From: Cognatishimia sp. 1_MG-2023
Lineage (GTDB): Bacteria > Pseudomonadota > Alphaproteobacteria > Rhodobacterales > Rhodobacteraceae
NCBI RefSeq assembly: GCF_030548175.1
Contig: NZ_JAUORX010000001.1
Coordinates: 496,001 to 560,000, forward strand
Length of the DNA: 64,000 nucleotides
Reading direction: 5' to 3'
Shown here: positions 5,157 to 44,894 of the stretch, one piece after another
Layout: the number at the start of each line of letters is the position of its first letter
Numbering within the stretch: the first letter of the stretch is position 1
Notes under the pieces: generated by a model
The model's database searches: none
Told to the model about the DNA's origin: nothing
The model's input: the letters and a program-made list of their open reading frames with translations, nothing else
Translations under genes and position numbers: made by a program

Positions 5157-5771
5157 TTAAAACACGCCTTGGTCGCGGGCGATCAGGGCCGCTTGGGTCC
5201 GGTTGCCGACCTCTAGTTTGCGATAGAGCGTTTTGATGTGCAGTTTGACGGTGGGTTCCGACAGATCGAGATCGCGGGCGATTTCTTTGTTGGATTTGCC
5301 TTCGGTCAAGCCGCGCAGCACTTGGGTTTCGCGTTCTGTCAGGCCTTTTAGCAAGGGATGATCATTGCCCTCTGGTTCTGCGGTCATGAAATCAAGTGGA
5401 GCGTATTTTTCGCCCATGGCCATGAATTTGATCGCGTTGACCAGTGATTTCGCGGGCAAGGTTTTGGGGATGAACCCGACGGCGCCCATTTCAAGCGCTT
5501 GCTCTGCAACCTCGCGCGAGGCTTCTCCGGACATCAAGGCGACGCGGTGGACGCCATTGCGTTCTGATGCGATTTTCAACCCCTCGAGGCCGTTCATACC
5601 GGGCATGTTGTAATCCAGCAGGACCAAATCATAGGTGTATTCGCCATCAATAAGGGCGCAGGCCGCGTCTAGATCGGCGGCGGTGTGGGTTTCAATGTTT
5701 TCTTCGTTTCCCATGAAGGCCACCAACGCATCGCGCAGCAGGTCATGGTCATCGGCAATTAATATTCTCAA
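5157..5771 (-). CDS. LuxR/NarL-family response regulator (copy 1)
   Basis: This protein has an N-terminal receiver domain with the acidic pair D7-D8 and phospho-acceptor D53 (LVLLDYNMPG), then a C-terminal LuxR helix-turn-helix (LTERETQVLRGLTEGKSNKE, residues about 140-200). I prefer a TTG start at 5771: GAGGG lies 8-9 nt upstream, and the 204-residue product then lines up from its first residue with the 202-residue second copy at 42216-42824, including D53. An upstream in-frame start at 5819 adds 16 unrelated residues. It lies between the wzz-like gene and the divergent TagA/sugar transferase gene. Three copies of AACGACCTA lie at 5072, 5149 and 5789. I infer that it regulates the polysaccharide locus and is phosphorylated by the hybrid kinase at 8027-10549. 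Confidence 0.93.
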   Translation of the reverse strand: MRILIADDHDLLRDALVAFMGNEENIETHTAADLDAACALIDGEYTYDLVLLDYNMPGMNGLEGLKIASERNGVHRVALMSGEASREVAEQALEMGAVGFIPKTLPAKSLVNAIKFMAMGEKYAPLDFMTAEPEGNDHPLLKGLTERETQVLRGLTEGKSNKEIARDLDLSEPTVKLHIKTLYRKLEVGNRTQAALIARDQGVF

Positions 5772-6020
5772 AGTCGAACCCTCGCTCGATAGGTCGTTAT
5801 ATTTGCAATACTCACCCACAACTGTGGCGCAAATGGGAATATTCCGGGGGAAACATCAGGCTACTACTCTACCCAAAGGGATATGATTTTTTCCAAAGGC
5901 ATGAATTAAAACGTCTTTTTTCGTCACCGCCATCACAATAGACCATATTTCAGCCATAAGCGTTAACGCGGCCTCTCTGTTTTTGCCTGATGTTGAATGA
6001 AGGTTAACGGAGGCGAGACT

Positions 6021-7391
6021 ATGACTTTTCATTCACAGGTGGCCCTACAGAGCGGTCCAAACACCCAAGCCGTGCTGCCGCACATTACGGTTATGGGGCA
6101 AAGCATTGTCAGCGCGACTGCGCAGGCAGCGGTGCAGGCCATGTTGGCCCCGGGGCGGCGGTGTATTTCGTTTTTGAACGCGCATTGTGTGAATGTCGCG
6201 ACGCGTGATCCTTATTACAAGGCAGCGTTGGCGCGGGCGGATATGGTTCTGCCGGATGGGATTGGGGTTGAGCTGGCGGCGAAGATGGAGGGCAAGACCA
6301 TCACCGCCAATCTGAACGGTACGGATTTGGCACCGAAGCTTTTGAAAGAGGCCGCACAGCGGGGGCTATCGGTGTTCTTGTTTGGTGGCACACCGGGTAC
6401 GGCGGAACGGGCGGCGGATACGATTTGTCGTCAGGTGCCGGGATTGCGGATTGCGGGAACGCGCGATGGCTATGGCGGGACGCAGGGTGCGGTTGAGGCA
6501 ATCAATGCGTCAAAGGCAGATATTCTGCTGGTGGCCATGGGCGTGCCGATGCAGGAGTTGTGGCTGGATCAGAACTTTGGCCAGTTGAAAACGCAGGTAT
6601 GTCTGTCGGTTGGCGGGTTGTTGGATTTCTGGGCGGGCAATGTGCGGCGTGCGCCGAAGGTGGTGCGCAAAGCCAAGGCGGAATGGGTCTGGCGGTTGAT
6701 GATGGAACCGCGTCGTTTGGCGAAACGGTATTTGATCGGCAATGTCACCTTTTTGGCGCGGGCCGCGCATTGGTCGTTGACGCAAGCCAATCGGTCTGCT
6801 GTTTTGAAACGGGTTATGGATTTAACGCTCTGCCTGTCGAGTTTGTTGATCCTTGGACCGGTCTTGTTGATTTTGATGGGGCTTATTCGTCTGGACAGCA
6901 AAGGCCCTGCCCTGTTTCGCCAAGAACGCGTTGGAAAAGATGGGAAACCGTTCACCTTGTATAAACTGCGGTCGATGGCCGTGGATTCCGAAGCTAAGCG
7001 CGCGGCGCTATTGGCGCAGTCGGATCGAGATGGGGTTTGCTTTAAGGCCAAGAACGACCCGCGGCTGACGCGGCTAGGACGGGTGCTGCGCCGGTACTCT
7101 TTGGATGAGTTGCCGCAAATTCTGAATATCATCAAAGGCGAGATGTCTGTGGTTGGTCCACGCCCTGCCCTGCCGCAAGAGGTTGCGGTCTATCCGGCGC
7201 GTGCGCTGAAACGCTTGGCGGTGAAGCCGGGGCTGACGGGGCTGTGGCAAGTGTCTGGGCGAGCAGACATTGGATTTGATCAGATGATCGAGATGGATCT
7301 GGCCTATGCGAAGTCGCGCTCTGTTCTGTTGGACAGCATGCTGATTTGGCTCACGGTGCGGACCATCGTTTCGGGGCGCGGTGCCTACTGA
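6021..7391 (+). CDS. Fused WecG/TagA/CpsF glycosyltransferase and initiating sugar-phosphate transferase
   Basis: This 456-residue protein combines two enzymes. Residues about 15-235 are a WecG/TagA/CpsF-type glycosyltransferase (SFLNAHCVNVATRDP, LPDGIGVELA, VAMGVPMQELW). Residues about 255-456 are a bacterial sugar transferase of the WbaP/ExoY type, with one membrane segment (about 265-285), then FRQERVGKDGKPF, RRYSLDELPQILNI and VGPRPALP. The second half would load the first sugar phosphate onto undecaprenyl phosphate, and the first half would add the next sugar. The start at 6021 has GGAGGCG at the right distance; an ATG at 5997 lies before that site. The two activities are more often separate proteins. 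It diverges from the response-regulator gene. Confidence 0.92.
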   Translation: MTFHSQVALQSGPNTQAVLPHITVMGQSIVSATAQAAVQAMLAPGRRCISFLNAHCVNVATRDPYYKAALARADMVLPDGIGVELAAKMEGKTITANLNGTDLAPKLLKEAAQRGLSVFLFGGTPGTAERAADTICRQVPGLRIAGTRDGYGGTQGAVEAINASKADILLVAMGVPMQELWLDQNFGQLKTQVCLSVGGLLDFWAGNVRRAPKVVRKAKAEWVWRLMMEPRRLAKRYLIGNVTFLARAAHWSLTQANRSAVLKRVMDLTLCLSSLLILGPVLLILMGLIRLDSKGPALFRQERVGKDGKPFTLYKLRSMAVDSEAKRAALLAQSDRDGVCFKAKNDPRLTRLGRVLRRYSLDELPQILNIIKGEMSVVGPRPALPQEVAVYPARALKRLAVKPGLTGLWQVSGRADIGFDQMIEMDLAYAKSRSVLLDSMLIWLTVRTIVSGRGAY

Positions 7392-7399
7392 CCCTAATG

Positions 7400-7419
7400 A
7401 CCTATCCGGATGGATAGGT
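7400..7419. promoter_or_regulatory. 20-bp palindromic operator, copy 1 of 2
   Basis: The sequence ACCTATCCGGATGGATAGGT has perfect 8-bp arms around a 4-nt centre; a flanking G/C pair extends it to 9 bp. It lies 67 nt upstream of the secreted sulfite-oxidase-fold gene at 7487 and just after the stop of the fused transferase. The same arms with a different centre occur at 42984-43003, upstream of the paralogous gene. It suits a dimeric regulator, and I infer the LuxR-type response regulators. Confidence 0.8.
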
Positions 7420-7486
7420 CCCTAACCACCCGAGCCACAGATTTTGAAAGTGATCTGCGCAATGATGAGGCATGGAAGGGAGTACC

Positions 7487-8002
7487 ATGAAACTTCAGAA
7501 GATGATGCTGACACTGGTTTTGACCGCATTGACGTTCGTTGCCCCAGTCTTTGCCAATACCACGACAGCATCGCCTGATGCTTCTGAAGCTGTGCTTGAA
7601 GTCTCGGGGATGAGGAGCAGCACAGAGGTGACGGTCACGTTGGACATCACGGCTTTACGGGCCATCGGCACAACAGAGATCGTCACCTCAACTATCTGGA
7701 CCGACGGGGTCCATCGTTTTTCAGGGGTGTTGTTGCGCGATTTGCTTAAACATGTTGGCGCAACTTCCGGCGTAGTCGTTCAAGCACAGGCACTGAACGA
7801 CTACGCCATCCAAATTCCGTTTGATGACGCCATCATGTCAGAGGCCCTTGTGGCCTTTGAAATGGATGGCGCACCGATGCATCGTAGAGCCAAAGGACCG
7901 CTTTGGATTGTGTACCCATTTGACCGCGCAGCAAAATTTCGCACAGAAACCATTTACGCGCGTTCCATTTGGCAGCTTAATAGGCTTCACATCGTTAAGT
8001 GA
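7487..8002 (+). CDS. Secreted sulfite-oxidase-fold protein, cofactor ligand missing (copy 1)
   Basis: This 171-residue protein has a Sec signal peptide (about residues 1-24, ending PVFA). The mature part resembles the oxidoreductase molybdopterin-binding fold: STIWTDGVHRFSGVLLRDLL, LNDYAIQIPFDDA, and RRAKGPLWIVYPFD followed by ETIYARSIWQL. It has no cysteine, so the usual molybdenum ligand is absent, and it is far shorter than the enzymes. It probably does not act as a redox enzyme. The ATG at 7487 has GGAAGGGAG before it. The hybrid kinase gene begins 24 bp downstream, so the two look co-transcribed. A paralogue lies at 43081-43587. I infer a periplasmic ligand-binding or accessory sensing role beside the kinase. 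Confidence 0.85.
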   Translation: MKLQKMMLTLVLTALTFVAPVFANTTTASPDASEAVLEVSGMRSSTEVTVTLDITALRAIGTTEIVTSTIWTDGVHRFSGVLLRDLLKHVGATSGVVVQAQALNDYAIQIPFDDAIMSEALVAFEMDGAPMHRRAKGPLWIVYPFDRAAKFRTETIYARSIWQLNRLHIVK

Positions 8003-8026
8003 TTTCACACATTAAGGCGAATTGAA

Positions 8027-10549
8027 GTGGCATTTTGGACGCGCGTATCTGACATCTATTCATCCAAAGACAGTAAGGCCGGTCGATGGGTCTTTGCGGC
8101 AGCCACAGTTATGTGCCTGGCGATTATGAGTTTTCTGGCGCGGAGCGTCATTGTCGACCTAAACGAACTGCGCTCTGCCAAGACGGATACGGTACAGTGG
8201 ACACTGTCGCAGGTTGAGATTGAGTATCTGAATTTTCGGCTTTCTATACACGAGGCACAGGAGAACGCGCCGCCGGACCTTGAGCGGTTGCGCAAGGATT
8301 TTGACGTGTTCTTTAGCCGCCATGACATTATTGCGCAGGGGTTGGTGTTTAAGGACGCGCGTCAGGTCGAAGCCTTTGCGGCCTCTGCCGAGGCGATTGC
8401 AGCGTTTCTGAATGAAACGGCCCCTTTGATTGACGGGGATGACGCAGCATTGTTTGCGGCATTGCCGCAGATTAATGCCGAGGTGGAGGCCTTGGGCCCG
8501 GCTGTGCGCGGGCTTTATGTGTCTGGTCTGGGGCATTTTACGATTCAGTCTGATCGCTTGCGTGAACGCCTGTCTGCAACGCTATGGCAGTTGACTTGGG
8601 TCACGATGGTTTTGATTGCGACGCTTGCGGTATTGGCGGTTTATTCCCGTGCGACGGCCACAAAGAGCCGGATGCGTGGCCGGGAATTGGCGCGAGCGAA
8701 TGCGCATATGGAGACGATTCTGTCGACCTCTTTGGATGGCGTGATTGTGTCAGATCACACGGGGCGCGTGGTGGATTTCAACGCCGCGGCTGAGGCGATC
8801 TTTGGTTATAAGCTTGAGGATATTCGCGGGCAGTTGATTGGTGATTTGATTGTGCCCCCTGAACTGCGGGCCGCGCATCAGGCAGGGATGGACCGCATGA
8901 TCCGCACGGGCGAGAAAAAGCTGGTGGGACATGGGCGCATTCGGATTGAAGCGGCGCGCGCGGATGGGACAATCTTTCCGGTAGAACTGGCGTTGCAATC
9001 CGCGACTGGTGCGGATGGCGAGATATTGATCGCGTTTTTGCGAGATATTTCTGCGCAGGTTGAGGCCGAAGAAGAGCTGCGCCAAGCGCGAGATCAGGCG
9101 CTTGCGGGGGAAAAGGCCAAGGCAGAATTTTTGACCGTTATGAGCCATGAAATTCGTACGCCGTTGAGCGGGTTGTTGGGCAATCTGTCGTTGTTGAGTG
9201 ATACTCAGCTAGATGCTGAGCAGGCGCAATTCACTGGAAACATGAGCATTTCCGGGCGGCAGTTGCTGAAACATGTGAATTCCATTCTGGATATTGCTCG
9301 GTTTGAAAGTGGTAAATTGCCAATTGAGGAGCGCGCCTTTCATCTGGGTGCCTTTTTGCAAGAGATTGTGGATAGCCAAAGTGGCCCTGCTGAAAACCGA
9401 CAGACGGCCATTGGCTGGAGCTGGATTGGCCCTTCGTTGGATTGGGTGCATGGCGATGAAGGGTTGCTGGAGCAAATTCTGCTGAACCTTGTGGGAAATG
9501 CGATCAAGTTTACTGAAAACGGACGGATCGACATTGAGGTTGAGCAAACTGGACATAAAGACGGGGCGCCGCTGATTGAGATGCGGGTGATCGACACGGG
9601 AATTGGGATTGCCGAAGCGGATCAAGAGCGGATCTTTGAAGATTTCGAAACTGGCGCGCGTCATGGTGGGCAGATTGGCAGCACGGGGCTGGGTCTTGGG
9701 ATTTCGAAACGGCTGGCCTCGTTGATGCGTGGCGAGATCGGCGTGGAAAGCACGGTTGGTGAGGGCAGCGTGTTTTGGCTGCGCTTGCCGATGCCAAAGG
9801 GGCACAAACCTGCGGCGGCTTCTGGTGAGGATGCGGATGCGGCGTTGGTGGATTGCTTGCAGATTTTGCTGGTTGAAGACAACGAGATGAACGCCTTTGT
9901 CGTTGAAAAGATGTTGCAGGCTGAGGGGCACCAAGTGACCTGGGCGCAGGATGGGTTGGAGGCGATTGAATGGGCTGAAAAGGCCACGTTTGATGTGATC
10001 TTGATGGACATCAACATGCCTCGGCTGGGCGGGCTAGAAGCCACGCAGCGTATTCGGGCAGAGATTGATCATGCCAAAGACACGCCTATTTTCGCCTTTT
10101 CTGCCAATGTTTTACCTGAAGACACCAAGCGGTTCCGCGAAAGTGGAATGGATGGGTTTATCGGCAAGCCTGTGCAGATCGAAGAGATGCGCGCGGCTTT
10201 GGCAAGTGTGGGGCGTGGTCCGGTTGTGGCTGACACGCCTGTAGCGGAAACGCAGGACGCGCGCGCTATGTTTGGGGAGAATTACGACCAATTCCTGACG
10301 CGTTTCTTAGATGAGGCTGATGAGTTGGCAGCCTGGGTGCAAACGGCAGAGGACCGTGAAGAGATCGTGCAGCGATGCCATAAGATCAGCGCGACGGCGG
10401 CATTGTTTGGCGCGCAAGCGTTTCATGCGGCTTTGCAGCGATTGGAACAAGAGGCCAAGCCAGAGGGCGCAGCGGATTTGGCAGCGCCCAAAGAACAGGT
10501 GGCGCAGGCTTGGGCCACAGCCCGTGAGGGGCTGGTGGCGAACGCTTAG
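8027..10549 (+). CDS. Hybrid sensor histidine kinase (PAS, kinase, receiver, Hpt)
   Basis: This 840-residue protein starts at a GTG with AAGG upstream. In order it has a transmembrane segment (about 22-44), a periplasmic domain of about 140 residues, a second transmembrane segment (about 188-206), a PAS domain (about 228-345), a dimerisation domain with phospho-acceptor H374 (MSHEIRTPLSG), an ATPase domain with N box (LLNLVGNAIKFTENG) and G boxes (DTGIGIAE, GLGLGISKRL), a receiver with D661 (LMDINMPRLGG), and a C-terminal Hpt-like domain with H785 (CHKISATAALFGA). This is a complete phosphorelay. It follows the secreted sulfite-oxidase-fold gene, suggesting a shared signal. The LuxR-type regulators at 5157 and 42216 are candidate outputs. 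Its end overlaps the convergent wza-like gene by 4 bp. Confidence 0.95.
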   Translation: MAFWTRVSDIYSSKDSKAGRWVFAAATVMCLAIMSFLARSVIVDLNELRSAKTDTVQWTLSQVEIEYLNFRLSIHEAQENAPPDLERLRKDFDVFFSRHDIIAQGLVFKDARQVEAFAASAEAIAAFLNETAPLIDGDDAALFAALPQINAEVEALGPAVRGLYVSGLGHFTIQSDRLRERLSATLWQLTWVTMVLIATLAVLAVYSRATATKSRMRGRELARANAHMETILSTSLDGVIVSDHTGRVVDFNAAAEAIFGYKLEDIRGQLIGDLIVPPELRAAHQAGMDRMIRTGEKKLVGHGRIRIEAARADGTIFPVELALQSATGADGEILIAFLRDISAQVEAEEELRQARDQALAGEKAKAEFLTVMSHEIRTPLSGLLGNLSLLSDTQLDAEQAQFTGNMSISGRQLLKHVNSILDIARFESGKLPIEERAFHLGAFLQEIVDSQSGPAENRQTAIGWSWIGPSLDWVHGDEGLLEQILLNLVGNAIKFTENGRIDIEVEQTGHKDGAPLIEMRVIDTGIGIAEADQERIFEDFETGARHGGQIGSTGLGLGISKRLASLMRGEIGVESTVGEGSVFWLRLPMPKGHKPAAASGEDADAALVDCLQILLVEDNEMNAFVVEKMLQAEGHQVTWAQDGLEAIEWAEKATFDVILMDINMPRLGGLEATQRIRAEIDHAKDTPIFAFSANVLPEDTKRFRESGMDGFIGKPVQIEEMRAALASVGRGPVVADTPVAETQDARAMFGENYDQFLTRFLDEADELAAWVQTAEDREEIVQRCHKISATAALFGAQAFHAALQRLEQEAKPEGAADLAAPKEQVAQAWATAREGLVANA

Positions 10550-11751
10550 TTTAGGGCAGCACCCACGGTGATCAGGCCCAATACGCGGGCGGCTTCTGCA
10601 ACATTGGTGACAGTGCTGTCGTAGCAGGCGATGCCGTCGCCGGGCAGAATGAAGGGATCATAATCGTCGCGGTCGGCGCGGCGGAGCATGTCCTCGATGT
10701 CGCGCTCGATCACAACCGAGACTTTGGTTTCTGGATTGCGCGACATCAACAGTGCGGAACGATGGGCGCTGGTCACGCGTGATCCACCGACGCAGTTTGC
10801 ATCCACTACGGCCTGTAAGTATCGCGTACCATAGGGCATTTCACGCACGTCACGGCCAATGGCGGAGGGTGCGTTGCCGGTTGCGGGTTGTGTCAGGTTG
10901 GATAGGAAAAGCGTCACGCCCGGTGGGCTGATGGGGCTTGGGCGCATCAGGTCATCTTGGAAACATTGGCGGGATGGCACGACCACGGTGTCGCCGGTGA
11001 TGAGCATGACATCGACACTGTTTTGGCCCTCGAAAACGCCCCGAAGATCCAGTTTATAGACGCGGCCCTTGCGGTGTAATTCGACGGCAGACAGGTCTGC
11101 ATCTGGGCGAATGCCCCCTGCGGCGCGTAGAGCTGCGGAGAGATTACGGGCCTCGGTTGAGGCGCCCAGCGCTTGGGCGCGGTTTTGGTCTATGGCGTCG
11201 CCCGCGACTTTGCCAAGTTCGATTTGGTGGGGTTCAAAGACGGCACCGGATACGCCAACGCTGACAGAGGCGAAATCGGCGGCACGGACGGAAACGGCAG
11301 GCGGTTCGTCGTATAGGCCTGCTTTCATCAGTGCGAGGACAAGGGAGAGTTCAACTTCGGAACTGGATTGGCCTTGGGTGCGGATGGGTTTGATGAAGGG
11401 CAGTTTTAACGTGCCATCGCGTGAGACCACGTAGCGACCAGATAGCGATTCATCTTCTGCGATACGGATGTCCAGCAGGTCGTTGCGTGAAAAGCGTTCG
11501 CCTAGCAGCGCCTGAGCGGCAAAGCCTTTGCCGCCATTACCGCCGCGATATGGCAGGCAGGTTTCAGCGTTCATGCGGGCGGAGGTCAGGTAGCTTTGGT
11601 CTTGGCGGGTGACAACATCACGATATTGGGCCTGATAGCCCTGCCCGGTTGCGATGGGTTCAATGTTGTTTGGACGGCTCACTGCAGCACAGCTGCTCAG
11701 TAGCGCTGCTGCGGCCATGAGGGCCAAAGGATTTGATTTAAAAGTCGCCAC
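10546..11751 (-). CDS. Polysaccharide export lipoprotein (Wza-like)
   Basis: This 401-residue protein opens with a lipoprotein signal and the lipobox LLSSC (C21). A poly-export domain follows (about residues 85-160: FSRNDLLDIRIAEDES, RDGTLKLPF), then SLBB-like repeats (about 160-270). Such proteins form the outer-membrane channel for capsule or exopolysaccharide. The tail beyond about residue 290 is long and ends in a hydrophobic stretch. It converges with the kinase gene and diverges from the flippase gene, with about 195 bp between the two starts. Confidence 0.9.
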   Translation of the reverse strand: MATFKSNPLALMAAAALLSSCAAVSRPNNIEPIATGQGYQAQYRDVVTRQDQSYLTSARMNAETCLPYRGGNGGKGFAAQALLGERFSRNDLLDIRIAEDESLSGRYVVSRDGTLKLPFIKPIRTQGQSSSEVELSLVLALMKAGLYDEPPAVSVRAADFASVSVGVSGAVFEPHQIELGKVAGDAIDQNRAQALGASTEARNLSAALRAAGGIRPDADLSAVELHRKGRVYKLDLRGVFEGQNSVDVMLITGDTVVVPSRQCFQDDLMRPSPISPPGVTLFLSNLTQPATGNAPSAIGRDVREMPYGTRYLQAVVDANCVGGSRVTSAHRSALLMSRNPETKVSVVIERDIEDMLRRADRDDYDPFILPGDGIACYDSTVTNVAEAARVLGLITVGAALN

Positions 11752-11946
11752 TATCGCCCCGATCTTCTTTTTTGCCGAGATGACACCATAGCGGTGATCG
11801 AAATCCAGCCATACACGCTATGGCGGATCGTTTTCCTATCCATTTGGGTCAATTCTGCACCAGCTGTGCCATGCATTGACCGCTTGCGTTGCTCCTGTGA
11901 GGGGGCGGAGCGGGCAAAGTGAGGTGACCTTAAGGGGAACTGACAC

Positions 11947-13170
11947 ATGTCTTGGCGCAACACAGATTCGAATTTCTTAGCCCACCTGATGGCCTATGGC
12001 GCATCTGAGGTGGCTAGCAAGCTGTCACGCTTGTTTGTGGTGGTCATGGTGGCGCGGACCTTGGGTGTAGAGCAAATCGGGCTGGCTGCTGCGGCTCTGG
12101 CGATTTGTGATCTGCTTAAGAGCGTCACGCAAAATGGGATTTGCCAGCGGATCATCGCGGCCCCCAAGGCTGAATTGCCGGGCATCTGCGTGACCGCGCA
12201 TCGGCTGTATTGGTGGCTTGGGTTTGGTTTGTTTGGCGTGCAACTGTTGGTGGCTGCGGGTCTGTGGGTTTGGGCGCATCCGGTTGTGGGTGGCTTGGTT
12301 GCCGTGGCCGCGCTGGAATATCTGTTTATGCCTGGTGGTTTGGTGCAAGCGGCCCTCGCGATGCGAGAGGGCAAGCTGACGCAGACCGCGAGTATTGCGG
12401 GTGGTCAAATCGTCGGTGCCAACCTGTTGAGCGTTGCGCTTGTTTTTGTTTTTCCGTCCCCCCTGGTGCTGGTTCTACCGCGCGTCTTAACGGCGCCTTA
12501 TTGGTTGATCGCCATGCGTCGGCTACGTCCCTGGCAGAAAGATGCCGCGGTGGAGCCAGCACCTTTTTTGCCCTTCATTACATTTGGTGTGCCGGTTCTT
12601 GGGATCGAGTTGATCAAGGCCTTGCGTCTGCATGCGGATAAGCTGTTGGTTGGCTTGTTGCTGGGGGCCGATGGGCTGGGGCTGTATTTCATGGCCTTTA
12701 ACGCAGGGCTAAGCATTGCCACGAGCTATGTCGCGGCCTTTGAGAAAGTGGTGTTCCCGCATTTGGCGGCAAAGTCGATCTCGGCAGGGCGGATGGCGTT
12801 GACAGGGCTTGGGCTGATTGCGCCGGTGGTTTTAGCACAGTCTTTGTTTGCACCGGTTTATGTGCCGCTGTTGTTGGGCCCGGGCTGGGACGCGGTGGTG
12901 CCGGTTGTGTCTATCCTATGCCTTTGCGCCCTGCCCCTGACGTTTTGGTCGGTGGCCGCGGCAGAGCTGCGGTTGGCGCAAAAGCCAGAGATCGAATTTC
13001 TGGTCACGCTGTTCCTGACAGTTGCTTTGGCGGTCAGCGCAATTGTGACCGCCCCCATGGGATTGCTGGCTATGGCCACGGGCTATGTGGTGAGCGTGAC
13101 CGTCGTGCTGTGTGGAGCGGCGGTGCCGCGCCTGATCTTTCCTTTATTTCAACGTCATCAAGAGGTGTAA
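11947..13170 (+). CDS. Polysaccharide flippase (Wzx-like)
   Basis: This 407-residue protein has about 11-12 membrane segments spread along its whole length, as in the Wzx/MATE-type polysaccharide transporters that move lipid-linked repeat units across the inner membrane. An early segment reads ASEVASKLSRLFVVVMVART, a typical start for the family. The ATG at 11947 is preceded by AAGGGG. It is the first gene of a tight four-gene run: the next gene begins 2 bp after its stop. Together with the Wzy-, Wzz- and Wza-like proteins it completes a Wzx/Wzy-dependent export set. Confidence 0.88.
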   Translation: MSWRNTDSNFLAHLMAYGASEVASKLSRLFVVVMVARTLGVEQIGLAAAALAICDLLKSVTQNGICQRIIAAPKAELPGICVTAHRLYWWLGFGLFGVQLLVAAGLWVWAHPVVGGLVAVAALEYLFMPGGLVQAALAMREGKLTQTASIAGGQIVGANLLSVALVFVFPSPLVLVLPRVLTAPYWLIAMRRLRPWQKDAAVEPAPFLPFITFGVPVLGIELIKALRLHADKLLVGLLLGADGLGLYFMAFNAGLSIATSYVAAFEKVVFPHLAAKSISAGRMALTGLGLIAPVVLAQSLFAPVYVPLLLGPGWDAVVPVVSILCLCALPLTFWSVAAAELRLAQKPEIEFLVTLFLTVALAVSAIVTAPMGLLAMATGYVVSVTVVLCGAAVPRLIFPLFQRHQEV

Positions 13171-40027: not shown

Positions 40028-41089
40028 CTATGCTGCCTCGTGGCGCAAAATCGCGGCCTCTGATGCTGTCAGTTGACGGCGTGCATGGTCCCCATAGCTA
40101 TAAGGACGCGCCGCAAACTCAGGATTGATACCCAGCAGTCTTGTGCGATCCTCGTCACCAAGGGAGGACATGGCAGCGTCTGCTGGGTGGAAACTTTCGG
40201 TTTCGACACCATTTGCAAAAAGGATTTCGTGACGCGGCAGTAAAAGATGCACGTAAGTCACTTCGCGCAGTTTGAAATCAACTTTCACATTGCGGCCATT
40301 TTCAAGCTGGCGCGCCGAAACCAACACTTCTGGTGTATTAAATAGTGCCCGAGCCACTTCGCCACGCACCAAAACCCGGTGATCAGGCGAAACGATCAAA
40401 GCACGCTGAGGGAATTCATGACCCAATGCGCCTGGCTTGATCCGAATTGGCCGCAACTTAGGCAATGCAAACAAACGTGCCCCTGTCATCCGACGAGACC
40501 CGATCCACTGAATTTCTTGCGGACCGTTGTCTTTGGTTAGGACCAGATCACCTTCGCGCAGCTTTTCAATCAGGCGTGGGCCTTTGGGCGTGTCGATCCG
40601 CGTGCCAGGAGTAAAACAAATCGTCCCTGCCCCATCCGCCTCTGAGGAATGGGTTTCGTGCATCTCCAACGTATGGTGAACAACCCAAAGATCGGAATCT
40701 TTGGGCGGAATTTCATCAATAAACATCAATAGCGGCGCGCCACCGTCAACGTCGATAAGGGTGACAGTGTAGCTGTTACGCCCATTGGTCACGACAAAGC
40801 TGCTGTCGCGCATTGGGTCGTCTGTTTCGACTTGATCTAACTTTGTTGTATTGGCCAACGCCGCCCCAACAAGCTTGCGTACCATGCGTGCCGCTTTGCG
40901 CCGCAACATCACTTCGCCTTCGCCGCGCTCCAATCGCAACAGTTCTGTTGGCCCGTCCACGCGGATAGCATCTCCACGCCATGACCACACCGCGCCTTGC
41001 TCAATAGCGCTTATAGGTGCGGCCGTAAGACCATCTACTTCTGTTTGCGACCAGGAGATGACGAACGTGCCCAAAAAGCCCGTTCCCAT
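40028..41089 (-). CDS. Hint (Hedgehog/intein-like) domain protein
   Basis: This 353-residue protein has an N-terminal part of about 155 residues of unknown fold and a Hint domain (about 157-300): CFTPGTRIDTPKGPRLIEKL with the leading cysteine, then REGDLVLTKDNG, VSPDHRVLVRG and YVHLLLPRHEILFANGVETE. In hedgehog proteins and inteins the cysteine and the TxxH motif cut the chain before the cysteine. Such proteins abound in roseobacters, often secreted by type I systems, but this one lacks visible calcium-binding repeats. Its function is unknown. About 210 bp separate it from rpsD. Confidence 0.88.
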   Translation of the reverse strand: MGTGFLGTFVISWSQTEVDGLTAAPISAIEQGAVWSWRGDAIRVDGPTELLRLERGEGEVMLRRKAARMVRKLVGAALANTTKLDQVETDDPMRDSSFVVTNGRNSYTVTLIDVDGGAPLLMFIDEIPPKDSDLWVVHHTLEMHETHSSEADGAGTICFTPGTRIDTPKGPRLIEKLREGDLVLTKDNGPQEIQWIGSRRMTGARLFALPKLRPIRIKPGALGHEFPQRALIVSPDHRVLVRGEVARALFNTPEVLVSARQLENGRNVKVDFKLREVTYVHLLLPRHEILFANGVETESFHPADAAMSSLGDEDRTRLLGINPEFAARPYSYGDHARRQLTASEAAILRHEAA

Positions 41090-41187: not shown

Positions 41188-42108
41188 TTAAAAGTCAAAC
41201 TTGATGCGTATTGCACCCAACACTTGCCCCTCTGGCTGGCCACTAAACTCTGGGCTCAACCATGATGCGCCATAGTAAATGCTGTACTTCTTTCGCTGCA
41301 TCTCAACGCCAGCACGAATACGATGACGTGTGTTCTCAAGCGAAATACCTGAGGACGTGGGCAAGTAAATGCTGCTATCCACATAAGCGATGTCGGCACC
41401 GATGAAGAACGCCATGCCATCTTCTCTTTGCTGGATTGTGCGATAGCGAAGGCCTGTGATTGGATCACGCACCAGAAGATCGCCCTGACCGATGTTACCA
41501 ATTGTTAGGTCAAAACCGGCGCGAACTAGTGTTTCGTCTCCGGCCCGTGCTTCTAGGAAAGGTCGAAGAGACGCATTTGAACCTAGCGACAGTGATTTAC
41601 CAACCTCAGCCACCGCTGAAAGCGTTGTTTTGTTGCCGACTTGGCTGCCCAACACACCAGACGACGGACCCTCTATTCCAAAGCTGTCATGTAAGAAGTT
41701 CTGAAAATCGCCTAACCCATTTTGCGGGCCAAGGATAGTCAGGTCACCACCAAGCGAGAATTCAAGCGAGTTGCGTTGGAAGTGCGTATGCGCACCAACC
41801 GATAGAGCCGCTGCATAAGGGCGATCGCCTGCTGGTGGTGATTGTAGATTTGAAGGCGCAATAATTTGGCCAAGTATACGCAGTTCAACAATTTCACCCA
41901 TATCTTCAGGGAGTTGGTCCATCCATTTTGGCCCAAACACATGGCTGCCAACGATAGAACCTGACCGCCAGCGATCATGCCCGTCCCCCAAAAAGTCGTT
42001 CACAATCAAACGGCCATAACCGAGCTGCTCGGCCTGCGCCGAAATTGGGATAACAATCTGAGCAAGACCAAGGACGGAAAGCCCAAGGGATAAAAGTAAA
42101 TGTCGCAT
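41188..42108 (-). CDS. LpxR-like outer-membrane lipid A deacylase family (DUF2219)
   Basis: This 306-residue protein has a signal peptide (about 1-26, ending SAQA) and then a beta-barrel pattern. The N-terminal NDFLGDGHDRWRSGS is the family signature, followed by RPYAAALSVGAHTHF and a C-terminal aromatic ending (IRIKFDF) typical of barrel insertion. LpxR removes the 3'-acyloxyacyl group of lipid A. Here activity is assumed only by family. I chose the ATG at 42108, which gives the signal peptide directly; the frame extends to 42174 without benefit. Confidence 0.85.
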   Translation of the reverse strand: MRHLLLSLGLSVLGLAQIVIPISAQAEQLGYGRLIVNDFLGDGHDRWRSGSIVGSHVFGPKWMDQLPEDMGEIVELRILGQIIAPSNLQSPPAGDRPYAAALSVGAHTHFQRNSLEFSLGGDLTILGPQNGLGDFQNFLHDSFGIEGPSSGVLGSQVGNKTTLSAVAEVGKSLSLGSNASLRPFLEARAGDETLVRAGFDLTIGNIGQGDLLVRDPITGLRYRTIQQREDGMAFFIGADIAYVDSSIYLPTSSGISLENTRHRIRAGVEMQRKKYSIYYGASWLSPEFSGQPEGQVLGAIRIKFDF

Positions 42109-42215
42109 AGCTGCCTCAACAGGAATTCTTGTTGCTGGCGACATACCTAAAGATTTGGTACAAAAAAAAGGCAATAAAGCGAATATTCAGATTATTTTCA
42201 GCTAAGAGGCGAGCA

Positions 42216-42824
42216 TCACACTAAACCAGCCTCTTTCGCAATCATCGCGGCTTGCGTCCGATTTTTGGCAGCCAACTTTCGGCACAGCGTCCGCACATGA
42301 AGCTTGATCGTCACTTCTTGCAATCCCAACTCACGCGCGATTTCTTTGTTAGACAGCCCTTGGCTGATACAATTCAAAACTTCTCTTTCACGTTTACTGA
42401 GTATTTTGATGAGCCCTTTGACAACCTCATCCTCTTGAGTGAATTCCAAGGGCACAAAGACTTCATCAGAAACCATAGTATTGACAGCCTTCAGGAAATC
42501 GCTTGCCGTCATTACCTTAGTCAAAAACCCAATTGCACCTTTCTGAATCGCCCCTTCTACGACAGACTTAGGCGCACTGATTGATAGGATAGCTATGCCA
42601 CGTGCCAAATTGGCCTTCACCGCCAATTCTAAGCCCGCAAGCCCATTCATATCTGGCATGTCATAATCCAAGAGCGCCAAATCAAACGGCCCGGCTGTCT
42701 GGCAGAAGTCTAATGCCTCATGCAAAGATTTGGCCGTCACAACACGGGCACTACCCATATTTTCTAGGTAAGCACCAAGTAATTCACGCACGAGTGCATG
42801 ATTATCTGCAATGAGTATTCGCAT
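42216..42824 (-). CDS. LuxR/NarL-family response regulator (copy 2)
   Basis: This 202-residue protein is collinear with the regulator at 5157-5771. It has MRILIADNHALVRELL, phospho-acceptor D53 (LALLDYDMPDMNG), GFLTKVMTASDF, and a C-terminal LuxR helix-turn-helix (LSKREREVLNCISQGLSNKE, residues about 138-195). The acidic pair is D7-N8 instead of two aspartates. It diverges from the second sulfite-oxidase-fold gene; the 256 bp between them hold an 11-bp inverted repeat and the 20-bp palindrome. No kinase gene is adjacent, so it may receive phosphate from the hybrid kinase at 8027-10549. Confidence 0.94.
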   Translation of the reverse strand: MRILIADNHALVRELLGAYLENMGSARVVTAKSLHEALDFCQTAGPFDLALLDYDMPDMNGLAGLELAVKANLARGIAILSISAPKSVVEGAIQKGAIGFLTKVMTASDFLKAVNTMVSDEVFVPLEFTQEDEVVKGLIKILSKREREVLNCISQGLSNKEIARELGLQEVTIKLHVRTLCRKLAAKNRTQAAMIAKEAGLV

Positions 42825-42932
42825 ATCAGTGGCATTGGTATTTTGTTGGTAAGAGTATTCAGTCTAAGCCATTCAAGGCCTTCACCTTGAGGAGCAAACT
42901 GTGATCTTAGATAAAGGCAGGACTATACCCTC

Positions 42933-42959
42933 AATTGCATTTTACCGAAAAATGCAATT
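42933..42959. promoter_or_regulatory. 11-bp perfect inverted repeat in divergent promoter region
   Basis: AATTGCATTTT, loop ACCGA, AAAATGCAATT lies between response regulator 2 and the second sulfite-oxidase-fold gene, 25 bp from the 20-bp palindrome. It has no clear U-tract beyond the stem, and its position between divergent genes makes an operator more likely than a terminator. Confidence 0.6.
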
Positions 42960-42983
42960 CAAATCCAGTGATTTTCGAGACCC

Positions 42984-43003
42984 ACCTATCCGAACGGATA
43001 GGT
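42984..43003. promoter_or_regulatory. 20-bp palindromic operator, copy 2 of 2
   Basis: ACCTATCCGAACGGATAGGT has the same 8-bp arms as the site at 7400-7419, with another 4-nt centre. It lies 77 nt before the ATG of the second secreted sulfite-oxidase-fold gene and about 160 bp from the start of response regulator 2. Shared arms upstream of paralogous genes argue for one regulator, or two with the same specificity. Confidence 0.8.
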
Positions 43004-43080
43004 CTCATTCCAATTGAGCAGGTGCTCTAGCTTACAATTCTATGCCAAAACTCAAATCATAAACTAACTTAGGTTAAGCT

Positions 43081-43587
43081 ATGATCCTTCGCATTTTTTG
43101 TTTTGCACTCCTTTCTCTTTGTCTTTCAACTACTGCACGTGCTGAAGCGTTACCCGAACCCAAAGGGCAGGTTCTTTTGACTGTTTCCGGCTCTATTGAG
43201 AAGAGAAATGCAAAACAGATCGCCATCTTTGATCGTGACATGCTTCTCGACCTACCAGTCACACAATTTGAGACGACAACAATTTGGACAGACGGGCTTC
43301 AAAGTTTCAGCGGCGTTTCACTTCATGACCTCAAAGAACAAATCGGCATGGATGGTGAGACACTTATTGCCAGCGCGATCAACGACTACAGCGTAGAAAT
43401 CCCACTTTCAGACGCGAAAGAAGGGGGACCAATCATAGCCTACCTTCGCAACGGAACTGAAATGTCAGTGCGCAGCAAGGGGCCGCTATGGATTGTTTAT
43501 CCATATGATACGGTTCCTGAATACCGATCTGAAACGATCTATTCTCGCAGCATCTGGCAATTGGACCGTCTGGAAGTCATCAAGTAG
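43081..43587 (+). CDS. Secreted sulfite-oxidase-fold protein, cofactor ligand missing (copy 2)
   Basis: This 168-residue protein has a signal peptide (about 1-21, ending ARA). It shares with copy 1 the blocks TTIWTDGLQSFSGVSLHDL, INDYSVEIPLSDA, RSKGPLWIVYPYD and SETIYSRSIWQLDRLEVIK. The mature chain has no cysteine, so molybdopterin cannot be held in the usual way. The ATG at 43081 is the first in frame. It diverges from response regulator 2 and has the 20-bp palindrome upstream. No kinase gene follows, unlike copy 1. I infer a periplasmic signal-binding or accessory role. Confidence 0.85.
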   Translation: MILRIFCFALLSLCLSTTARAEALPEPKGQVLLTVSGSIEKRNAKQIAIFDRDMLLDLPVTQFETTTIWTDGLQSFSGVSLHDLKEQIGMDGETLIASAINDYSVEIPLSDAKEGGPIIAYLRNGTEMSVRSKGPLWIVYPYDTVPEYRSETIYSRSIWQLDRLEVIK

Positions 43588-43892
43588 CCTGCGCGGATAA
43601 CGTTAAGCGACGAACACCTAATCTTAGTCCAACACCCTCCAGCCTATAGAACAACACGCTCTGACAGGGAATCATCCCGCTGAATCTTGGGCCAACCAGA
43701 TCAGCCTTGGAATTTCTTACCGATACGGAAAACCGTTATCGCCATCGGTGCCGTAACCGTTAACGCAAACAGAAGCAGTCAGGTCACGTTTAACGCTAAC
43801 ATACTGACAAAAAACGTGTTTTACCTTTTTCCCCAGCCCTATTCGCTCTATACGGCGGCCAACTCCACGTGCTTATAAAAAGAGGACATTCC
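43588..43892. other. Intergenic stretch before gap
   Basis: About 305 bp without a gene. It holds repeated GTTAACG/GTTTAACG-like words near 43758-43798 and probably the gap promoter. A short open frame at 43687-43878 lacks a ribosome site and looks like chance. I see no clear terminator or RNA gene. Confidence 0.5.
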
Positions 43893-44894
43893 ATGACCGT
43901 CACCCTAGGCATCAACGGATTTGGCCGCATCGGTCGCTGCACTTTGATGCAAATCGCAGAAGCTGCTCGTGACGATGTAAAAGTTGTTAAGCTAAACGCA
44001 ACAGGCCCACTCGAAACTGCGGCGCATCTTATCCGCTATGACTCGATCCATGGGCGCTTCATCAACGATGTTACCGTTCAAAACGGCACAATGGATGTCG
44101 GCCAAGGGCCAATGCGCGTCTATTCAACCTACAACATGGATGAGTTGGACTGGACGGGCGTTGATGTTGTTCTGGAATGCACCGGCCAATTCAATGACGG
44201 CGAAAAGGCAGCCAAGCACTTAGAACGTGGCGCTAAAAAAGTTCTGATCTCCGCGCCTGCTAAGAATGTCCAACGTACCGTTGTGTTTGGGGTTAATGAT
44301 CATCTGCTCAATGCGAATGACAACATGATCTCAAACGGCTCTTGCACGACAAACTGCTTGGCTCCGCTTGCAAAAGTCCTGCACGAAAACATTGGTATCG
44401 AGAACGGTCTGATGACCACGATCCACAGCTACACAGGCGATCAGCCAACTCTGGACCGCCGTCACAGTGACTTGTACCGCGCACGGTCAGCAGCCATGGC
44501 AATGATCCCAACCTCAACCGGCGCTGCGAAAGCCTTGGGCGAAGTGCTTCCGGATCTAAAAGGCAAGCTTGATGGCACAGCAATACGTGTCCCTACGCCC
44601 AACGTTTCTGCCGTTGATCTGACTTTTGTAGCTTCCAAAGATGTCACTGCAGCTGATGTGAATGAAATCGTTCGCGAAGCGGCTGCGACAACAATGAAAG
44701 GCGTGTTGGGCTACGATCCAGAGCCAAAAGTCTCTATCGACTTTAATCACACAACAGAAAGCTCCATCTTTGCACCAGATCAAACCAAAGTTGTTGGCGG
44801 GCGAACCGTTCGCGTTTTGGCTTGGTATGACAACGAGTGGGGCTTTTCTACTCGTATGGCAGATGTTGCCGCGAAAATGGGTCAGCTGATCTAA
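43893..44894 (+). CDS. gap: Glyceraldehyde-3-phosphate dehydrogenase, type I
   Basis: This 333-residue glycolytic enzyme has the NAD-binding LGINGFGRIGRCTLMQI, the catalytic SNGSCTTNCLAPLAKVLH, and SYTGDQPTLDRRHSDLYRAR, ending WGFSTRMADVAAKMG. I chose the ATG at 43893 (AGAGGA upstream); the frame begins at 43869 without benefit. The motif after the first turn and the RRHSDL loop are typical of the type found in roseobacters, where several gap copies exist. A hairpin and a tiny membrane-protein gene follow. Confidence 0.95.
   Translation: MTVTLGINGFGRIGRCTLMQIAEAARDDVKVVKLNATGPLETAAHLIRYDSIHGRFINDVTVQNGTMDVGQGPMRVYSTYNMDELDWTGVDVVLECTGQFNDGEKAAKHLERGAKKVLISAPAKNVQRTVVFGVNDHLLNANDNMISNGSCTTNCLAPLAKVLHENIGIENGLMTTIHSYTGDQPTLDRRHSDLYRARSAAMAMIPTSTGAAKALGEVLPDLKGKLDGTAIRVPTPNVSAVDLTFVASKDVTAADVNEIVREAAATTMKGVLGYDPEPKVSIDFNHTTESSIFAPDQTKVVGGRTVRVLAWYDNEWGFSTRMADVAAKMGQLI

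Follow-up and report, generated by a model that had tools for sequence, protein, structure and literature searches.

An orphan PruR-family protein and a candidate operator of PruR-linked regulators in Cognatishimia sp. 1_MG-2023

The window, that is, the whole stretch of 64,000 nucleotides from Cognatishimia sp. 1_MG-2023 analysed here, encodes two small secreted proteins of the PruR family at separate loci. The first of these, locus A, contains the orphan gene pruR-A and is laid out as follows.

42216..42824, minus strand: RR-A, a response regulator of the NarL/LuxR type, divergent from pruR-A, whose acidic pair is D-N and not D-D
42985..43002, no strand: perfect palindrome CCTATCC-N4-GGATAGG between the divergent genes for RR-A and PruR-A, a candidate operator
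43081..43587, plus strand: PruR-A (P0001), an orphan protein of the PruR family with 168 residues, predicted to bind pterins in the periplasm
43588..43868, no strand: gap without a kinase gene, at the place where six relatives in the genus have a DTB kinase; no detectable remnant

Beside this locus, the window encodes a Hint-domain protein (40028-41089) and an LpxR-like outer membrane protein (41188-42174). The second locus, locus B, belongs to a polysaccharide gene cluster.

5157..5819, minus strand: RR-B, the NarL/LuxR-type response regulator of the polysaccharide-cluster locus
5868..5885, no strand: imperfect palindrome with three mismatches, between the genes for RR-B and the glycosyltransferase, with a run of six T behind it
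5997..7391, plus strand: WecG/TagA glycosyltransferase fused to a bacterial sugar transferase
7401..7418, no strand: perfect palindrome CCTATCC-N4-GGATAGG upstream of pruR-B
7487..8002, plus strand: PruR-B (P0002), a PruR-family protein of 171 residues; the reading frame possibly starts at 7472
8027..10549, plus strand: DTB hybrid sensor kinase of 840 residues with a DcpA-type periplasmic domain, PAS, HisKA, HATPase and REC domains and a weak Hpt domain
8135..8641, plus strand: DcpA/DTB-type periplasmic domain of this kinase, with a WX7E motif and hydrophobic helices on both flanks
10546..11751, minus strand: polysaccharide export protein (Poly_export; wza-like)
11835..11852, no strand: degenerate palindrome in the divergent wza/flippase promoter region, at 10 of 16 positions, which is chance level by itself
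11947..13170, plus strand: polysaccharide biosynthesis protein of the flippase type

PruR-A and PruR-B are secreted members of the PruR family and have the sulfite-oxidase fold. Both come close to the expected size of about 170 residues with an N-terminal secretion signal (signal peptides and hydrophobic leaders were called by eye and not by a predictor), and they share 39% identity across an alignment of 170 positions. The blocks IWTDG, NDY, KGPLWIVYP and RSIWQL, which the first-pass annotation of the window had singled out, do occur in both translations, and the mature chains are free of cysteine as it had stated: PruR-B has no cysteine at all, and the two of PruR-A (residues 7 and 14) lie within the N-terminal leader. 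The cysteine ligand to molybdenum that characterises sulfite oxidase-type enzymes is absent from both mature chains. For comparison we assembled 97 pruR loci, consisting of 80 regions around listed PruR matches, 15 regions from the genus and the two loci of the window; the 80 regions are mostly the best-scoring of the listed matches plus one lower block, and are not a random sample. Mature chains lack cysteine in 93 of these 97 PruRs, and the remaining four have one each.

The closest solved structures are those of PruR proteins. In a sequence search of the PDB, the best matches carry the title 'Pterin Binding Protein' (E 2.7e-36 for PruR-A and 2.3e-24 for PruR-B), and the five matching entries represent four distinct sequences, three of them titled pterin-binding protein and one (7kom) Oxidored_molyb domain protein. 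According to the entry titles in Foldseek all five are PruRs, from Agrobacterium, Klebsiella and Vibrio, and the best solved relative is 7KOS, at about 46% identity. Structure prediction covered PruR-A, not PruR-B, and gave a model with a pLDDT of 93.8. This model superimposes closely on the PruR structures 7KOS and 7KOU (Foldseek TM 0.94 by target; Z 26, rmsd 1.2-1.5, 45-46% identity) and more weakly on sulfite-oxidase-type enzymes (Z 9.5-16.3, 12-24% identity). Hence the comparison with molybdenum enzymes that the first-pass annotation had proposed as a check finds a shared fold, with PruR as the nearest neighbour.

Judged by its residues, the site itself is not empty in either protein. Asn101, Tyr103 and Trp159 of PruR-A correspond to the pterin-site residues Asn102, Tyr104 and Trp160 of A. 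tumefaciens PruR, as numbered in the accessible part of a 2026 review (PMC13259868), and the offset of one agrees with the structural alignment of residues 21-167 on 22-168 of 7kou. The same Asn, Tyr and Trp are kept in PruR-B. Across the 97 PruRs, the three columns hold N in 96, Y in 94 with F in two more, and W in 96.

It is possible to see molybdenum enzymes in these proteins, given the fold of PruR-A and the Pfam profile Oxidored_molyb, which PruR-B matches above the cut-off of 24 (41.6 bits) and PruR-A slightly under it (20.4 bits, E 4e-4); PruR-B also has weak NCBIfam matches to sulfite dehydrogenases. Such an identity is ruled out for both proteins by the missing mature cysteine and by PruRs being their best matches. 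An unrecognised molybdenum enzyme with an alternative ligand is highly improbable as well, since the proteins consist of a single short domain without a cysteine in the mature chain, their nearest solved relatives are PruR pterin-binding proteins, and the truncated site of PruR is described, in the portion of the review at hand, as likely unable to hold the molybdenum cofactor (PMC13259868). In the account given there, small pterins are bound by PruR, which has no molybdenum cysteine and touches DcpA at the latter's periplasmic domain; in many Proteobacteria it is instead paired with a sensor kinase that has a DcpA-type periplasmic domain with a WX7E motif. This arrangement is termed PruR-DTB, Ruegeria pomeroyi WP_011045932.1 being one example, and several PruR copies per genome are reported (PMC13259868, as far as accessible). 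The first-pass annotation had suggested that a sulfite-oxidase fold that lost its molybdenum ligand was recruited as a periplasmic sensing partner. This central idea is correct and, with PruR-DcpA and PruR-DTB described in the accessible review text (PMC13259868), already published; pterin binding and receptor contact by the two window proteins would follow by analogy with these PruRs of other species.

At locus B the pairing with a kinase is evident. The annotation had placed a hybrid kinase directly after one of the two proteins, and indeed the gene at 8027-10549 starts 24 bases past pruR-B. It has what is expected of a DTB kinase, namely a periplasmic WX7E motif, which reads W TLSQVEI E, and cytoplasmic PAS, HisKA, HATPase and REC domains. 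Among 82 DTB kinases the W of this motif is kept in 80, and the E is found in 64 and replaced by D in 17. The Hpt match (20.8 bits) falls below the Pfam cut-off of 24.6, and of 80 full-length DTB kinases, 53 show a crude pattern for the Hpt histidine and 27 do not. A c-di-GMP receptor of the DcpA type was considered for this protein and is ruled out, as there is no Pfam match to GGDEF or EAL. Searches for a solved relative of the periplasmic domain returned nothing significant by sequence (best E 0.14), and Foldseek gave scattered helical bundles (best E 0.14), a result that has no bearing on the novelty of the fold.

The genomic link to kinases, without which the first-pass reading would be hard to maintain, recurs across the family: the next gene is a kinase in 92 of the 97 pruR loci, namely a DTB kinase in 82 and another kinase in 10, with none in five. 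The N-termini of the 10 other kinases match the DTB-domain profile at E values of 4e-26 to 1.6e-4 with filters off, and they form a second type of kinase linked to pruR, in which the DTB-like periplasmic domain is divergent (L117, L118, L122, L124, L127, L128, L129, L132, L136 and L076). The co-occurrence analysis that the annotation had also proposed was run against the DTB domain in 295 genomes of the family, one per genus. PruR is found in 167 of them and the DTB domain likewise in 167; 161 have both, six PruR only, six the DTB domain only and 122 neither. The DTB-domain search behind these counts scored at most 11 candidates per genome and used other thresholds than the PruR search, and the Fisher value for the co-occurrence ignores relatedness. 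Copy numbers are unequal in 34 of the 161 genomes with both (PruR more numerous in 19, the DTB domain in 15), indicating that orphans of either kind may not be rare.

Besides the kinase, a regulator gene accompanies most pruR-DTB loci. LuxR-type regulators had been noted near both window proteins, and both are response regulators with a LuxR/GerE helix-turn-helix, encoded on the minus strand at 42216-42824 and 5157-5819. Counting matches at E below 1e-30 within 4.5 kb upstream of pruR, a divergent NarL/LuxR-type regulator is present at 76 of 82 pruR-DTB loci, at none of the 10 loci with another kinase and at three of the five without a kinase. The remaining DTB loci have the regulator on the same strand (2/82) or none in the fetched stretch (4/82), some of these being cut by a contig end. 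RR-A stands apart in its acidic pair: D-N (ADNH) is the sole case among 79 divergent regulators, the other 78 having D-D (one of them escaped the pattern and was read by eye). The response of RR-A to phosphate may therefore be altered or lost.

The intergenic regions point to a possible target of these regulators. Alignment of the gaps between regulator and pruR genes within the genus brought out the palindrome CCTATCC-N4-GGATAGG. Up to three mismatches, the window holds five matches against 1.14 expected, and the source genome (3.16 Mb) has three perfect copies, the control having none at up to one mismatch. At up to two mismatches the genome has nine copies and the control four, so that imperfect copies alone have little meaning. 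Within the genus there are 17 copies at up to one mismatch, in eight of nine genomes, against one in the control. Of the 295 family genomes, 34 have a perfect palindrome, with 48 copies altogether and none for the reversed-pattern control, and 32 of these 34 genomes are PruR-positive. At least 19 of the perfect copies precede a listed PruR match by no more than 400 bases, at least 32 are within 6 kb of one, and 13 of the 48 are on contigs without a PruR among the matches listed.

We also scored sites against the 16 positions of the window copy at 93 loci, these being the 97 loci minus the two of the window and two short regions. A site of at least 12 of 16 is found within 500 bp upstream of pruR at 59 of 93 loci, compared with 85 of 1863 control windows from the same regions; the other 34 loci have no such site in that interval. 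By class, these sites are present at 52 of 75 loci with a DTB kinase and the regulator, at one of 10 with another kinase and no regulator, at three of four with a DTB kinase and no regulator in view, at both loci with the regulator and no kinase, and at one of two with neither. In 51 of the 59 cases the site falls between -130 and -80, relative to a nominal start placed 507 bases ahead of the stop codon, and a further half-site frequently lies a few bases beyond the palindrome. Since it recurs upstream of pruR at 59 of 93 related loci, the palindrome is a candidate operator, which would tie the system to itself and perhaps to the polysaccharide cluster.

It is possible that the palindrome is a terminator hairpin instead, or the site of a DNA-binding protein unconnected with pruR. 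Several copies indeed stand directly behind stop codons, as behind uvrC and the sugar transferase gene, and runs of T come after the imperfect copy at 5868 and, about 20 bases on, after the copies in L180 and L181. However, of the 59 sites that precede pruR, a single one is followed by five T within 12 bases, and a single one has five A in the 12 bases before it. Moreover, the letters are conserved beyond what pairing requires, the further half-site is often present, the copy at 42985 sits between divergent genes, and the site is rare in the class with other kinases and no regulator (1/10 vs 52/75). We thus consider a terminator or a foreign site unlikely, and favour an operator of the PruR-linked regulator as the candidate role.

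Copies also occur away from pruR. The third perfect copy of the source genome (L171:7962-7979, contig 17) is flanked by the 3' end of uvrC on one side and by pgsA-moaD-moaE on the other, uvrC and moaD being named by eye. This uvrC copy is found in four of nine genus genomes, namely the source genome, G299 (with one mismatch), G300 and G301, and in G301 a gene reading towards the palindrome stands between it and pgsA. An additional perfect palindrome of G302 (L178, C5:13149) lies outside both pruR loci near an apparent sigma-factor gene, identified by eye. In G296 and G299 (L180, L181), a one-mismatch copy separates a miaA-like gene from the gene that follows it, both named by eye.

Why pruR-A has no kinase beside it can be addressed with the nine genus genomes. 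The first-pass annotation had paired both proteins with two-component genes; of the two, only 7487-8002 directly adjoins a kinase gene, and past 43081-43587 the next gene is GAPDH at 43869. All nine genomes have PruR. The locus A kinase is present in six (G295, G296, G297, G298, G299 and G301) and absent from the source genome, G300 and G302, all three of which retain pruR and the divergent regulator. The identity of locus A across the genus rests on its flanks: GAPDH is found downstream in the fetched stretch in seven of nine genomes, the LpxR-like gene upstream in seven of nine, and at least one of the two in each of the nine. A tblastn search of 43588-43868 with nine kinases gave chance-level matches only, the best of which (E 0.02) extends into GAPDH, and no RNA element reaches the gathering score within 42800-43900. 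In G302 the place of the DTB kinase is taken by a heavy-metal P-type ATPase and a MerR regulator (L067:3075-5933). The usual arrangement, in which pruR and the gene of a DcpA or DTB receptor make up a two-gene operon (a property of the gene order and not of the protein), is found for PruR-B and not for PruR-A, which, having no adjoining receptor gene, is classed as an orphan. Thus, 43081-43587 encodes an orphan PruR whose kinase was lost.

One could suppose that pruR-A and RR-A are functionless and decaying after this loss. The missing kinase, of which not even a remnant adjoins pruR-A, and the altered acidic pocket of RR-A, unique among 79 regulators, would be expected of a remnant. However, the reading frame of PruR-A is intact with all three pterin-site residues, a perfect palindrome precedes the gene, and both pruR-A and RR-A are kept in three kinase-less genus genomes, the other two of which retain a D-D pair in the regulator. 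Decay is therefore an improbable account. Alternatively, PruR-A could use a receptor other than a DTB kinase, or serve on its own as a periplasmic store or scavenger of pterins. The lack of an adjacent receptor would suit this, as would the release of pterins by cells that is mentioned in the accessible review text (PMC13259868). We doubt it nonetheless, because the source genome (3.16 Mb, 99.6% complete) has two PruRs and a single DTB-type periplasmic domain in both protein and profile searches, and because the DTB domain is present in 161 of 167 PruR genomes.

A more appealing scenario is that PruR-A acts in trans on the kinase of locus B. A kinase of the locus-B type is present elsewhere in all three genomes without kinase A. 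In G300 the loss is reciprocal: PruR-A remains although kinase A is gone, and kinase B remains although PruR-B is gone, the locus-B kinase adjoining RR-B (85% identical) with 433 bases and no pruR between them. It follows that PruR-A may serve kinase B in that genome, that is, act in trans. G300 has one additional PruR, linked to a different kinase (L076); the N-terminal part of that kinase also matches the DTB profile (9.5e-16), which leaves room for alternative pairings in this genome. In a tree of the 97 PruRs, PruR-A stands beside the G300 orphan (89/42) within a group that includes L065 (96/86); the bootstrap of this tree had not converged and 45 of 94 inner branches are open, so that the tree would suit a single kinase loss as well as several. 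Taken alone, the partnership of PruR-A with the kinase at 8027-10549, which gene counts and one genome with reciprocal loss suggest, has in our estimate roughly even chances.

What the system regulates may be indicated by its neighbours. Around the pruR pair, a wza-like gene occurs at 18 and a wecG-like gene at 19 of the 97 loci, and the window has such genes in its cluster at 5997-13170. Eight of the 18 loci with a wza-like gene have a site of at least 12 of 16 close to the start of that gene; in the window the best such site reaches 10 of 16, which is chance level. We infer that the polysaccharide genes are a likely output of the pruR system, which would fit the role of PruR in Agrobacterium biofilms. 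As to the ligand, the model NF006598 (PRK09135), presumably one of pteridine reductases, gave 22 matches, none over the cut-off, and none was obtained in control genomes including E. coli either, so that this search is without a positive control. The source genome has 23 matches to a short-chain dehydrogenase family, and at none of these 23 loci does the PruA/FolM-type signature TGx3RxG, given for pteridine reductases in the part of the review consulted (PMC13259868), occur in the expected place, a provisional result as the pattern matched only part of the loci. PruA is likewise said there to be missing from Vibrio cholerae (PMC13259868). A different reductase, or a supply from outside the cell, may provide the ligand.

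We propose that PruR-A and PruR-B, having lost the molybdenum-binding cysteine and kept the pterin pocket, would act as periplasmic pterin receptors. Once loaded with a pterin, probably a reduced one, PruR would contact the helical periplasmic domain of the DTB kinase at 8027-10549, from which phosphate would pass to the REC domain, a probable Hpt domain and finally the NarL/LuxR-type regulator encoded beside pruR. Binding sites of the regulator would be the CCTATCC-N4-GGATAGG copies that precede the two pruR genes and, in relatives, further sites within the polysaccharide cluster. In this way the system would control itself and probably exopolysaccharide genes too. At 43081, where its own kinase was lost, the retained PruR-A would most likely be the trans partner of the sole remaining DTB kinase. 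We are largely confident in the general frame, in which P0001, P0002, the kinase and the regulators form a PruR-DTB-regulator system.

It is tempting to go further and regard PruRs as exchangeable inputs, with PruR-A rewired to kinase B so that two receptors converge on one DTB kinase, and with G300 as a re-paired case. In the same reading the regulators would govern one regulon through CCTATCC-N4-GGATAGG, comprising the two pruR genes together with the polysaccharide cluster and, possibly, pgsA-moaD-moaE, where moaD-moaE stand for molybdopterin synthase. This combined proposal is tentative and somewhat less probable than its opposite. If true, it would supply the output half of PruR-kinase signalling and provide for feedback from pterin sensing to pterin metabolism.

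That a molybdenum-enzyme fold can become a periplasmic signal receptor is a published idea and not new. What is added here is a PruR left orphaned, its kinase having been lost in three of the nine genomes of the genus, together with the conserved regulator gene and the candidate operator. In the literature surveyed we met no recognisable earlier account of the palindrome, of an orphan PruR or of the linked regulator, some of which the primary PruR paper may include. In its accessible part, PMC13259868 gives no output for PruR-kinase pairs; a regulator gene, an 18-base candidate operator and candidate targets, namely the system's own genes and the polysaccharide cluster, are predicted here across the family. 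Natural kinase loss and the apparent re-pairing of PruRs with kinases offer a ready test of the specificity of the contact between PruR and its receptor.

Among known systems, molybdenum enzymes of the sulfite oxidase, SoxCD, SorT and YedY types share the fold (Z 9.5-16.3); in contrast to them, the window protein is a single short domain without the cysteine ligand and only 12-24% identical. The hybrid kinase TorS (TIGR02956) is the best NCBIfam match of 8027-10549 (356.8 bits, E 2.6e-106, residues 350-728), yet this score is far under the curated cut-off of 676.5, and the sensor domain and partner protein differ. The PruR-DcpA system of Agrobacterium tumefaciens (7KOS, 7KOU) resembles ours in the PruR fold, at about 46% identity, and in the Asn/Tyr/Trp site. 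Its receptor, however, is a c-di-GMP cyclase/phosphodiesterase, whereas here it is a hybrid histidine kinase, and the PruA-type pteridine reductase signature was, provisionally, not found in the source genome. The likeness to PruR-DTB (DcpA-TorS-BaeS type) extends to the secreted PruR without molybdenum cysteine, the order pruR then kinase, the DcpA-type periplasmic domain with WX7E, the PAS-HisKA-HATPase-REC architecture and the multiple copies per genome. A response regulator, an operator or a receptor-less PruR is not named in the part of the review available (PMC13259868), which presents PruR-DTB as a two-gene operon; the system described here additionally includes a regulator encoded divergently, a palindrome common to both loci and a PruR without a kinase of its own.
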